From Bacteroidota bacterium (lineage in GTDB: Bacteria; Bacteroidota; Bacteroidia; B-17B0; Aurantibacillaceae), in contig JADBXZ010000022.1 in NCBI GenBank assembly GCA_020403265.1, positions 1-64,000 on the forward strand: a stretch of DNA of 64,000 nt. The letters are read 5' to 3'. Within the stretch, counting starts at the first letter, position 1. Every line of letters begins with the position of its first letter. The translations under genes were made by a program, and so were the position numbers. Positions 1,981 through 6,361 of the stretch are shown piece by piece. The notes below the pieces were generated by a model. That model saw only the letters and a program-made list of their open reading frames with translations, was not told the origin of the DNA and made no database searches.

Positions 1981-3579
1981 TTATTTGGATGAAAAGTAGG
2001 CACTTAATTCGGTAAGCGTTTTAGTGTTTAAACAATGTTCCTGAGTTAACATGCCTTTACGTGCTACACAAACGCCATAATACATATCTAACAATCCCTC
2101 GGTATGATGCGCATCCGGATTAATTGAGATCATCACTCCTTTTGATAAGCAATACGGAATCCATCTCCAATCAATATCCAAGCGATAAGGGTGAGCATTT
2201 AATTCAATACAAACGTTGTTTGCTGCACATGCATCAATAATTTTTTTGTGGTTGATGGGGTAGCCGGGTCTGCTTAATAGTAATCTTCCTGTTGGATGGC
2301 CCAATATCGTTGTGTAAGGATTTTCAATGGCTTTAATTAAGCGCTCTGTTGCACGTTCTTCTGTCATCTTAAGATTGGCGTGAACGGAGGCTACTATGAA
2401 ATCAAATTGTTTTAAGATTTCTTCCGGGTAATCTAAACTTCCGTCTCCCAAAATATCGCTTTCAATACCTTTAAAAATTTTGAACTGATTATGATACGTT
2501 TTATTTAATTCATCTATTTCCTGATGTTGTTTTAATACGTGTTCAATGCTTAGTCCATTCGCATATACAGCCGTTTTAGAGTGGTCGCATACACCAAAAT
2601 AGTCGTAGCCTTTTTGGATGCAAAAATCGGCCATTTCCTTTAAGGTGTGAACGCCGTCACTATAGGTTGTATGATTGTGCAAGGCGCCACGCAATTGATC
2701 GTATTCAATCAATACAGGTAGTGCATTATTGCGGGCTAATTCTACTTCTCCCAGTCCTTCGCGTAATTCTGGTTCAATGTATGGTAAGTCCAGCGATTCG
2801 TAAACTTCTTCTTCGCTGTAAAATGTAGTTACCGTTAAATCATTAAAACCAATTTGTTGCAGATGTTTGGCTGTGCTGGTTTTTTGAATTAGTTCATAAT
2901 AAAATTCGTCCGGTTTGCATGTCGAATAATTAATTTTTAATGGGCACAATTTTTCAAGTTCAGAATAATCGGCTGTTAAATCTCCATCCATTAAAATCTC
3001 AACCTTAGTTATAATTTCACATTTTCTGGCTAATTCTCCAACTGCTTCAATTTGAAGTTCCGGCTGTTTTTCACGTATTGCATCCAGTAGATTGTTGATG
3101 ATAAACACTATACTTGCAAAATGAAATTTATTTGAATTGGCTAATTTAAATTCAATGGCTTGTTTAACGGCTGATTGGGTTTTTTCACCAAATCCTTTTA
3201 AACTTGTTAGTCTGTTTTCATTACAGGCATAAAGTAATTCGCCGGTACTTTCAATTTCCAATTCATGCCAGAGTTGTTTTACTTTTTTTGGTCCTAGTCC
3301 TTTAATGCTCAATAAATCAATTACTCCTGCCGGCGTTTTTTCAAGTAATTCCGTTAATTCTTTACTTTGGCCTGTTTGTAAAATTTCAACAATGGTTTTG
3401 GCAATTCCTTTACCAATCCCTTCAATGGCGTTAATATCACTTTCTGTTTTTCCTTCAAAATTGTATCTGAGTTTATCTAATCTGTATGCAGCGTTACCGT
3501 AGGCTTTCACCTTAAATGCATTGCCGTCGTGTAAATCCAATAATTTCCCTGTTAATTCAAGTGCTTCAATAATGTCCAT
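1981..3579 (-). CDS. PolX-type HhH/PHP protein, polymerase site degenerate
   Basis: The 532-residue protein has the bacterial PolX architecture: an N-terminal pol-beta-like helix-hairpin-helix region (residues 1-140, with GIGKGIAKTIVEIL and KGLGPKKVKQLW), a palm/fingers region (about 150-290) and a C-terminal PHP phosphoesterase domain (about 295-532). The PHP metal ligands look intact: LHNHTTYSDG, GVCDHS, KGIESD, VASVHA, ILGHPTGR, ELNAHP and NPDAHH. In the palm, where active family members have G-S-x-R-R...D-x-D, this protein reads VGELARKCEIITKVEIL, so the catalytic aspartates are absent. It is therefore probably a PHP nuclease rather than a polymerase. Its promoter (3595-3625) is one of the clearest in the window. 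Confidence 0.85.
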   Translation of the reverse strand: MDIIEALELTGKLLDLHDGNAFKVKAYGNAAYRLDKLRYNFEGKTESDINAIEGIGKGIAKTIVEILQTGQSKELTELLEKTPAGVIDLLSIKGLGPKKVKQLWHELEIESTGELLYACNENRLTSLKGFGEKTQSAVKQAIEFKLANSNKFHFASIVFIINNLLDAIREKQPELQIEAVGELARKCEIITKVEILMDGDLTADYSELEKLCPLKINYSTCKPDEFYYELIQKTSTAKHLQQIGFNDLTVTTFYSEEEVYESLDLPYIEPELREGLGEVELARNNALPVLIEYDQLRGALHNHTTYSDGVHTLKEMADFCIQKGYDYFGVCDHSKTAVYANGLSIEHVLKQHQEIDELNKTYHNQFKIFKGIESDILGDGSLDYPEEILKQFDFIVASVHANLKMTEERATERLIKAIENPYTTILGHPTGRLLLSRPGYPINHKKIIDACAANNVCIELNAHPYRLDIDWRWIPYCLSKGVMISINPDAHHTEGLLDMYYGVCVARKGMLTQEHCLNTKTLTELSAYFSSK

Positions 3580-3594
3580 CTCAACAAATTTAGA

Positions 3595-3625
3595 GTAATA
3601 AATACTGGTGCCAAATTATTTTTTT
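3595..3625 (-). promoter_or_regulatory. promoter of the PolX-like gene
   Basis: Read on the minus strand, TTTG (3625-3622) is followed after exactly 19 bases by TAAATTTG (3602-3595). This is the Bacteroidota primary sigma pattern TTTG-N19-TAnnTTTG. The start codon lies 15 bases beyond the -7 box, so the mRNA would have almost no 5' leader. Confidence 0.7.
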
Positions 3626-3662
3626 TAATTTTTATAATTAATGAATTTAATCAATAAAAAAT

Positions 3663-3693
3663 TTTAGGATTTGCTTTGAATTTGCTAATTTCG
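3663..3693 (+). promoter_or_regulatory. candidate thrS promoter
   Basis: TAATTTCG at 3686-3693 matches TAnnTTTG except for one base, and TTTA at 3663-3666 sits 19 bases upstream as a weak -33 element. Transcription would start near 3700, giving a leader of about 34 nt made up mostly of the hairpin at 3709-3725. The match is imperfect. Confidence 0.4.
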
Positions 3694-3708
3694 TAAGCCT
3701 AAAACAAA

Positions 3709-3725
3709 CCTACGTTGTAAGTAGG
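3709..3725 (+). promoter_or_regulatory. thrS leader hairpin mimicking tRNA-Thr(UGU) anticodon arm
   Basis: CCTAC (3709-3713) pairs perfectly with GTAGG (3721-3725) around a seven-base loop, GTTGTAA. Numbered as an anticodon arm, the loop has U at 33, UGU at 34-36 and A at 37 and 38. UGU is the anticodon that reads the threonine codon ACA. The hairpin ends eight bases before the thrS ATG. In Escherichia coli, ThrRS represses its own mRNA by binding leader hairpins that imitate the tRNA-Thr anticodon arm; the same mechanism is inferred here from sequence only. Confidence 0.65.
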
Positions 3726-3733
3726 AAAACATT

Positions 3734-5674
3734 ATGATTAAAATTACATTACCCGATGGTTCTGTCCGTGAATACGAAAAAGGAACTACCTCTCACCAAA
3801 TCGCATTAAGCATTAGCGAAGGTTTAGCAAGAAACGTGTTAGCAGCAAAAGTAAACGGTCAGGTATGGGACTCCTCCCGACCAATTATTCAAGATGCTGC
3901 ATTGCAGTTATTAACCTGGAATGATAACGAAGGCAAAGAAACATTTTGGCACAGTACAGCCCATTTAATGGCCGAGGCACTTGAAGCCTTGTATCCCGGC
4001 AGCAAATTTGCGATTGGCCCTCCTGTGGAAAACGGCTTTTATTACGACATTGATTTTGGCGATAAAACATTTTCAATTGACGAGGTTGAAAAAGTAGAGA
4101 AAAAAATGATGGAGCTTGCGGCATCCAAGAGTGAGTATATGCGTAAAGAAGTTAGCAAAGCGGATGCCATTAAATATTTTACAGAAAAAAACGATCCTTA
4201 TAAATTGGAGTTAATTGATGGTTTGCAAGATGGCAGCATCACCTTTTACACTCAAGGTAACTTTACCGATTTATGTCGCGGACCACACATTCCCAATACC
4301 GGCCATATTAAAGCTGTTAAGCTTTTAAGAGTAGCCGGCGCTTATTGGCGAGGAGATGAGAAAAACAAACAGTTAACACGTATTTATGGGATTTCGTTTC
4401 CAAAGGATAAAGAGTTAAAAGATTATTTGATTTTATTAGAGGAAGCTAAAAAACGCGATCACCGTAAACTCGGTAAAGAATTGGAACTTTTTACTTTCAG
4501 TGAAAAAGTAGGGATGGGCTTACCTTTATGGTTGCCAAAAGGGGCAGCACTGCGTGATAAATTAGAGCAGTTTATGCGTAAGGCTCAGCAAAAAGCTGGT
4601 TATCTGCCTGTTGTTACACCGCATATTGCACAAAAAGAATTGTATGTGTGCAGCGGTCATTATGAAAAGTATGGCGCCGATTCGTTTCAGCCAATCAAAA
4701 CACCGCACGAAGGGGAGGAGTTTTACTTGAAACCAATGAACTGCCCGCACCACTGCGAAATTTATAAAGCATCACCTAAATCGTATAAAGATTTACCTGT
4801 GCGCTTGGCAGAGTTTGGTACTGTTTACCGCTACGAGCAACATGGCGAATTGCATGGTTTAACGCGTGTTAGAGGCTTTACTCAAGATGATGCGCATTTA
4901 TTTTGCAGGCCCGACCAGGTGAAGGAAGAGTTTTGTAAAGTGATTGATCTGGTACTTTATGTTTTTAATGCTTTGGGCTTTAAAGACTATACAGCGCAAA
5001 TTAGTCTACGTGATCCTGAAAATAAATCAAAATACATTGGTACCGACGAAAACTGGCAGATTGCTGAAAATGCGATTATTGAAAGTGCTCAGGAAAAAGG
5101 ATTAAAAACTGTAACCGAATTGGGTGAAGCAGCGTTTTATGGCCCTAAATTGGATTTTATGGTTAAAGATGCATTAGGAAGGAAGTGGCAGTTAGGTACC
5201 ATTCAGGTAGATTATAATTTACCCGAGCGTTTTCAGTTAGAGTACACCGGAAGTGATAACCAAAAGCACCGCCCGGTAATGATTCACCGCGCACCTTTTG
5301 GAAGCTTAGAACGCTTTATTGCAGTATTAATTGAGCATTGTGGCGGGAATTTTCCACTATGGTTAACGCCTGAACAGTATGCCATTTTGCCTATTAGCGA
5401 AAAGTACAACGATTATGCCATTAAATTAAGAGAAGAGTTGGCACAGCACGATATTCGCGGTTTTGTGGATGATCGCAATGAAAAAATCGGTAAAAAAATC
5501 CGCGATAATGAAGTTAAAAAAATACCGCTGATGTTAGTCGTTGGTGAAAAAGAAGAGGCTGAAAATAAAGTTGCCGTTCGCCAACACGGAAAAGGCGATG
5601 TGGGTGTGTTTGGTATTGATGAATTTATTAAATTTGTCAACGAAACCATACAAAATGATTTCAAAAACAATTAA
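3734..5674 (+). CDS. thrS: threonyl-tRNA synthetase
   Basis: ThrRS charges tRNA-Thr with threonine in the cytoplasm. The 646-residue protein shows the full family layout: TGS domain (residues 1-62, [10 protein letters not shown]), editing domain with [11 protein letters not shown] (about 73) and [12 protein letters not shown] (about 180), class II catalytic core, and C-terminal anticodon-binding domain (about 545-646). Zinc ligands are visible in [17 protein letters not shown] and MIHRAPFGS. The ATG is preceded by AAAACATT with no Shine-Dalgarno sequence, as usual in this phylum, and by the anticodon-arm-like hairpin at 3709-3725. infC follows after 30 bases, so the two are probably co-transcribed. 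Confidence 0.97.
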
Positions 5675-5694
5675 TTAATTACAAACTTAAAAAC

Positions 5695-5707
5695 GGAGGT
5701 CACTATC
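5695..5707 (+). promoter_or_regulatory. strong Shine-Dalgarno and ATC start of infC
   Basis: GGAGGT (5695-5700) lies five bases (counted from the last G of GGAGG) before ATC (5705-5707), which is in frame with infC. No ATG, GTG or TTG gives the conserved N-terminus. Shine-Dalgarno sequences are generally rare in Bacteroidota, so this one stands out and fixes the start. Confidence 0.75.
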
Positions 5708-6361
5708 AATCACTTCAAAAAACCGTTCAACGGTCCTAAACCAAACAACACGAACACCAACACCGGTCCTGTAAAACCTGGTGAAGAAAAACCTGTATTT
5801 AAACAACCCAAAGGCTTAAAGGCCGGCTTCAGACGCCCTGGCGTTAAAGAAGAACAACACCGTATTAATGATCGTATTTTTGCGAAGCAAGTGCGCGTGG
5901 TTGGTGAAGGCATTGAACCGGGTGTTTATTCAGTGTCGAAGGCCCTGGAAATGGCTCGTGAGCAAGGCTTGGATTTAGTTGAGATTGCACCGAACGTTGA
6001 TCCGCCTGTTTGTAAAATTGTTGATTATGGAAAGTTTTTATACGAGCAAAAGAAAAAAGCCAAAGAGGTAAAAGCTAAAGCAAGTAAGGTAGTTATTAAA
6101 GATATTCGATTCGGTCCTCATACAGATGATCATGATTTTAATTTCAAGAAAAATCATGCCATGAAATTTTTACAGGAAGGATGTAAGGTTAAAGCCTTTG
6201 TATTTTTTAGAGGCCGCGAAATTGTGTTTAAAGAGCAAGGTGAGATTTTGTTATTGCGTTTTGCCAGTGAATTAGAGGAGTATGGTAAGGCGGAGCAATT
6301 ACCTGTTTTAGAGGGTAAGAAAATGCAAATGGTTTTAGCACCAAGAAAACCTAAAGGGTAA
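5705..6361 (+). CDS. infC: translation initiation factor IF-3 (ATC start)
   Basis: IF-3 binds the 30S subunit and checks start codon and initiator tRNA. From ATC at 5705 the product is 218 residues: a basic, Asn/Pro-rich extension (1-50), the N-domain beginning [17 protein letters not shown] (about 53), and the C-domain with [17 protein letters not shown] (about 135). The ATG at 5891 would remove the first strand of the N-domain and most of RIND...QV, so it is rejected. IF-3 genes commonly start at AUU or another rare codon, which lets IF-3 repress its own synthesis; ATC fits that pattern. rpmI and rplT, usual downstream neighbours, are not present; a minus-strand gene ends 48 bases on. Confidence 0.93.

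Follow-up and report, generated by a model that had tools for sequence, protein, structure and literature searches.

The window analyzed here, a 64,000-nucleotide (nt) stretch of Bacteroidota DNA (contig JADBXZ010000022.1, family Aurantibacillaceae), contains thrS, the gene for threonyl-tRNA synthetase (ThrRS), and directly before its start codon a 17-nt hairpin resembling the anticodon arm of tRNA-Thr. Sequence comparisons support an interpretation of this hairpin as a tRNA-Thr mimic, and we put the probability at about 0.88 that it is a translational operator for autoregulation by ThrRS. The hairpin lies at a consistent position before thrS, its stem covaries, its loop is specific for threonine anticodon bases, it recurs in several lineages of Bacteroidota, and it is restricted to the thrS leader. 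The features concerned are the following.

3687-3694, + strand: -7 box-like TAATTTCG (Bacteroidota consensus TAnnTTTG), with a predicted transcription start at ~3699
3709-3713, + strand: 5' arm CCTAC of the anticodon-arm-like hairpin, from sequence and fold; covaries with 3721-3725
3714-3720, + strand: 7-nt loop GTTGTAA, with U33 at 3715, UGU (34-36) at 3716-3718, A37 at 3719 and A38 at 3720
3721-3725, + strand: 3' arm GTAGG, from sequence and fold; covaries with 3709-3713
3726-3733, + strand: A-rich 8-nt spacer before the start codon, without a Shine-Dalgarno sequence, from sequence
3734-5674, + strand: thrS, encoding a ThrRS of 646 aa, the presumed repressor and regulated gene

A first-pass annotation of this DNA had described an anticodon-arm geometry with a stem of 5 base pairs (bp), a 7-nt loop, U33, UGU at 34-36 and A37, with 8 nt between it and the ATG of a thrS that lacks a Shine-Dalgarno sequence. 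The sequence bears out this description exactly: positions 3709-3725 read CCTAC-GTTGTAA-GTAGG, the 8 nt at 3726-3733 separate the hairpin from the ATG at 3734, and no Shine-Dalgarno sequence lies between them. When the 46-nt thrS leader was folded as RNA, precisely this hairpin and no other structure formed, accounting for 82% of the ensemble at -6.3 kcal/mol. When the 60 nt preceding thrS were shuffled, a 7-nt loop with U-N-G-U closed by five Watson-Crick pairs arose at p ~0.002. The host genome's own tRNA-Thr(UGU) arm is ACTGA-TTTGTAA-TCAGT, and its loop is the same as that of the leader at 6 of 7 positions; the stems of the two show no sequence kinship. The host tRNA-Thr loops are TTTGTAA in the (UGU) and TTGGTAA in the (GGU) species.

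We gathered thrS leaders from the genus, family, class and phylum, and this comparison speaks much more strongly against chance than the shuffles do. The first-pass annotation had named loss of the hairpin in close relatives as grounds for abandoning its proposal, yet every distinct genus leader (32/32) has it, as do 24 of 28 in the remainder of the family. It is also present in all six additional family leaders read later, although one of them, L322, probably comes from the contig that had already supplied L033 to the wider group. A scan of the family anchored on the stem, with no requirement on loop sequence, found a 5-bp stem with a 7- or 8-nt loop in 56 of 60 leaders, and the hairpin lies 6-14 nt from the ATG in 55 of the 56 scored. 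One genome of the same genus (G026) has a second, distant thrS with 53% identity, whose leader (L318) is without the hairpin.

Covariation in the stem across relatives, proposed beforehand as a check, was found at all five pairs. Among 32 distinct hairpins with 7-nt loops, each pair varies in both arms and only standard pairs occur, although the hairpins were chosen as paired, so that this 100% pairing is partly selection and 56/60 without the loop requirement is the less biased figure. The pair types by position are CG/AU/GC; CG/UA; UA/CG; AU/GC/GU; and CG/UA/UG/AU. The 24 distinct hairpins with 8-nt loops likewise vary on both sides of all five pairs with pairing kept. The covariation score was 0.84 versus 0.36 +/- 0.04 after shuffling for the set of 32, and 1.23 versus 0.24 for the set of 24. 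Pairing fell to 30-51% in controls with slid arms. On the ThrRS tree, the five pairs of the hairpins near the ATG require at least 28 changes.

Loop identity follows the threonine anticodon. All 56 stem-anchored family hairpins have U33, G35 and U36; at position 34, 55 of them have U and one has C, and position 37 is A, U or G. The anticipated invariance of a U-NGU-A loop was therefore borne out in part: U33, G35 and U36 are fixed, and A37 gives way to U or G in some relatives. Leaders from outside the family add A, C and G at position 34, and all four NGU threonine anticodons thus occur in nature. G35 and U36 are ThrRS identity elements in several organisms (PMC9976931; PMC4267643), to which one review adds G34 for bacteria. 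A free position 34 beside fixed G35 and U36 is what ThrRS recognition predicts. Some relatives have a loop of 8 nt instead of 7. These variants are less odd because a yeast mitochondrial tRNA-Thr that is charged by its ThrRS also has an enlarged 8-nt loop (PMC4267643).

Another scan covered 262 distinct leaders, each taken as 120 nt upstream plus 12 nt. It required U33 in a 7- or 8-nt loop closed by a 5-bp stem, and we tallied the dinucleotide at positions 35-36. GU was found in 111 of the 262, with an expectation of 5.4 from shuffled leaders. The other 15 dinucleotides occurred in 2-22 leaders each (median 7), the next best being AA with 22.

The element is specific to thrS within genomes. 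Its exact 17-mer occurs eight times in 40 genus genomes, always at thrS, and a covariance-model search of the whole genome placed the thrS leader at the top, with the next sites inside or antisense to open reading frames. The leaders of 12 other aminoacyl-tRNA synthetases in the same genome (Ser, Pro, Gly, Val, Ile, Met, Leu, Cys, Asp, Lys, Asn and His) lack their cognate anticodon arm. A comparable scan of E. coli K-12 thrS, run as a positive control, recovered GTGATCT-TTCGTGT-GGGTCAC, which matches the known anticodon-like operator arm. This CGU arm lies at -54, and we infer that a second hairpin with a UGU loop at -118 is the second operator arm. ARAGORN found no tRNA gene in the window. 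There was no Rfam match in the window at gathering score, and none up to E = 1 in 3580-3800. We found no published account of a Bacteroidota thrS leader element in the open-licence literature, to which the search was confined, so an unseen report is possible. A Flavobacterium transcriptome does describe structured 5' untranslated regions on unnamed aminoacyl-tRNA synthetase mRNAs (PMC9723704).

The thrS product is full-length, with TGS, SAD, class II core and HGTP anticodon-binding domains. Upstream lies a PolX-like gene (1981-3579) in the opposite orientation and, because the two genes are divergent, the 154-bp gap between them holds the thrS promoter and leader. The motif TAnnTTTG was placed at -12 to -5 in a Flavobacterium (PMC9723704), and the predicted transcription start at ~3699 presumes that this placement holds in the window organism. 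From that start the leader would be ~35 nt long and half filled by the hairpin, making plausible the earlier remark that the leader consists of little else. Among the 37 family leaders containing TAnnTT[TC]G, the motif sits 8-20 nt (mostly 14-16) upstream of the hairpin in 36. A possible 7-bp outer pairing between 3663-3669 and 3698-3704 was set aside since it spans the predicted promoter and would fall outside the transcript.

Beyond the family the element takes several forms. Most leaders of Sphingobacteriaceae (Pedobacter, Mucilaginibacter, Olivibacter) have two arms. The upstream arm, typically ATCAC-NNNGUAN-GTGAT, lies mostly 37-50 nt upstream, with a few further away. In the second, AATCAT-AGTTGTAG-ATGATT, the 3' arm is the gene start itself, including the AUG, and variants keep U-NGU. 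This AUG-overlapping arm was seen in Sphingobacteriaceae leaders: those of the family among L037-L067, and L073, L080, L092, L138, L140, L144 and L157. Sphingobacterium has mostly the start-codon arm. Arms of 5-8 bp with 8-nt loops, ~22-43 nt upstream, are found in Algoriphagus, Echinicola, Belliella and Roseivirga, and forms of the element occur in some Cytophagales. Its distribution in class Bacteroidia is patchy, covering about a dozen of ~60 sampled families (by family code), and in the phylum's other classes 38 leaders yielded nothing convincing, only chance-like matches. Separately, the GC-rich leaders L185, L189 and L195 (f9) and L244 (f44) have CGU loops in the 8-nt form, such as CCACC-GCTCGTAG-GGTGG, and may form a lineage of their own.

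We propose that the hairpin, folded like an anticodon arm, offers ThrRS the tRNA-Thr identity bases G35 and U36. Present in excess over tRNA-Thr, ThrRS would dock through its anticodon-binding domain on the hairpin, 8 nt upstream of the AUG, and deny the 30S subunit access to the start site; tRNA-Thr, by competing for ThrRS, would relieve repression. One report (PMC9976891) describes Shine-Dalgarno sequences as unrecognized by Bacteroidia ribosomes, and bound ThrRS would therefore simply cover the initiation region. Binding, repression, competition by tRNA and a direct block of ribosome loading are the inferred parts of this mechanism.

This scheme has a precedent in E. coli thrS, where ThrRS on anticodon-like operator arms blocks the 30S subunit and tRNA-Thr relieves the block (PMC9976931; PMC9956033; PMC3858243). 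That operator follows tRNA identity rules, and changing its anticodon to that of Met brings it under the control of MetRS (PMC9976931). The E. coli operator and the window element share a hairpin in the thrS leader, U33, a threonine anticodon and a 7-nt loop. However, the E. coli operator exceeds 100 nt and has two anticodon-like arms, a Shine-Dalgarno sequence and a U-rich ribosome site, whereas the window has a single 17-nt arm in a leader of ~35 nt without a Shine-Dalgarno sequence. Because the two-arm layout and Shine-Dalgarno sequence are missing from the window, and no common descent can be demonstrated, we treat the element as related in kind to the E. coli operator and not as a member of it by descent. 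We see even odds that Bacteroidia hold a convergent, separate class of ThrRS operator, in which a lone, free-standing arm would suffice because the ribosomes have no need of a Shine-Dalgarno sequence, and the AUG-containing arm of Sphingobacteriaceae would let ThrRS clamp the AUG directly.

Other known systems are more distant. The yeast HisRS and ThrRS mRNA mimics (PMC6542539, PMC9956033) likewise involve a synthetase bound to an mRNA element like an anticodon stem-loop, but they are eukaryotic and unrelated in sequence; the HisRS element is in its own mRNA, and the ThrRS element is in RPC10 mRNA and is activating. T-box leaders, such as those of Gram-positive thrS, are likewise RNA leaders of synthetase genes that respond to tRNA. 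They are long and pair with tRNA through a codon-like specifier, in contrast to the 17 nt and anticodon-like loop seen here. We rejected a T-box leader (RF00230) for want of a covariance-model match in Rfam, a specifier codon and a T-box bulge. The Thr operon leader (RF00506), with its attenuator peptide and terminator, also had no Rfam match, and the leader is too short for it.

Several observations weigh against a ThrRS operator. The window and family have a single arm versus two in the E. coli operator. The class-wide scan demanded U33 and GU, so loop invariance there is by construction, although invariance at the family level is not. Four family leaders (L268-L271, genera g2 and g3) have no hairpin, as is true of many Bacteroidia families, and the hairpin is therefore dispensable for thrS.

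Three rival explanations must also be considered. A different RNA-binding protein could read the U-N-GU hairpin, in which case the likeness to tRNA-Thr would be incidental. RRM-type regulators, for example, are common in Bacteroidota, the short loop is rich in U, G and A, and ThrRS is a presumed partner. Yet this explanation is improbable given that the fixed bases are U33 and the threonine identity bases, that position 34 takes all four values, and that an element of 5 bp plus 7 or 8 nt is confined to thrS. We hold it still less probable that the inverted repeat near the -7 box acts as DNA, forming a 17-bp transcription-factor operator just 3' of the promoter. The arms vary freely while the asymmetric loop stays, the position relative to the start varies by clade, and G-U wobbles suit RNA, as in CCTAT-gttgtag-GTAGG (L111, L114, L115) and CCTGC-gttgtag-GTAGG (L124). 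The location near the start codon and predicted 5' end would also fit a plain structural barrier or a stabilizer of the mRNA 5' end, independent of ThrRS, but this leaves the fixed U33, G35 and U36 and the free position 34 unexplained, and we consider it just as remote as a DNA operator.

Downstream of thrS, infC has no ATG, GTG or TTG that could serve as an in-frame start ahead of the conserved N-terminal domain. In its start region (window 5690-5710), an in-frame ATC (5705) is preceded at 5 nt by a strong AAAACGGAGG, and this GGAGG-N5/6-ATT/ATC arrangement is preserved at nearly all infC loci of the same family. Such a Shine-Dalgarno sequence with a non-AUG start, in a phylum whose ribosomes otherwise disregard Shine-Dalgarno sequences, suggests that IF3 may control its own synthesis, as it does in E. 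coli.

As a ThrRS operator, the thrS hairpin would show that a synthetase can regulate itself through a tRNA mimic in a further phylum as well, with the mimic pared down to one 17-nt arm and in organisms whose ribosomes do not depend on Shine-Dalgarno pairing. Among bacteria, as far as we found, such mimicry at thrS had been reported only from E. coli. The leaders also amount to a natural identity experiment, with UGU, AGU, CGU and GGU anticodons, loops of 7 or 8 nt, and varied distances to the AUG, even placement around it. This variety would make both the minimal requirements of a synthetase operator and repression free of Shine-Dalgarno sequences testable in culturable Pedobacter and Mucilaginibacter.
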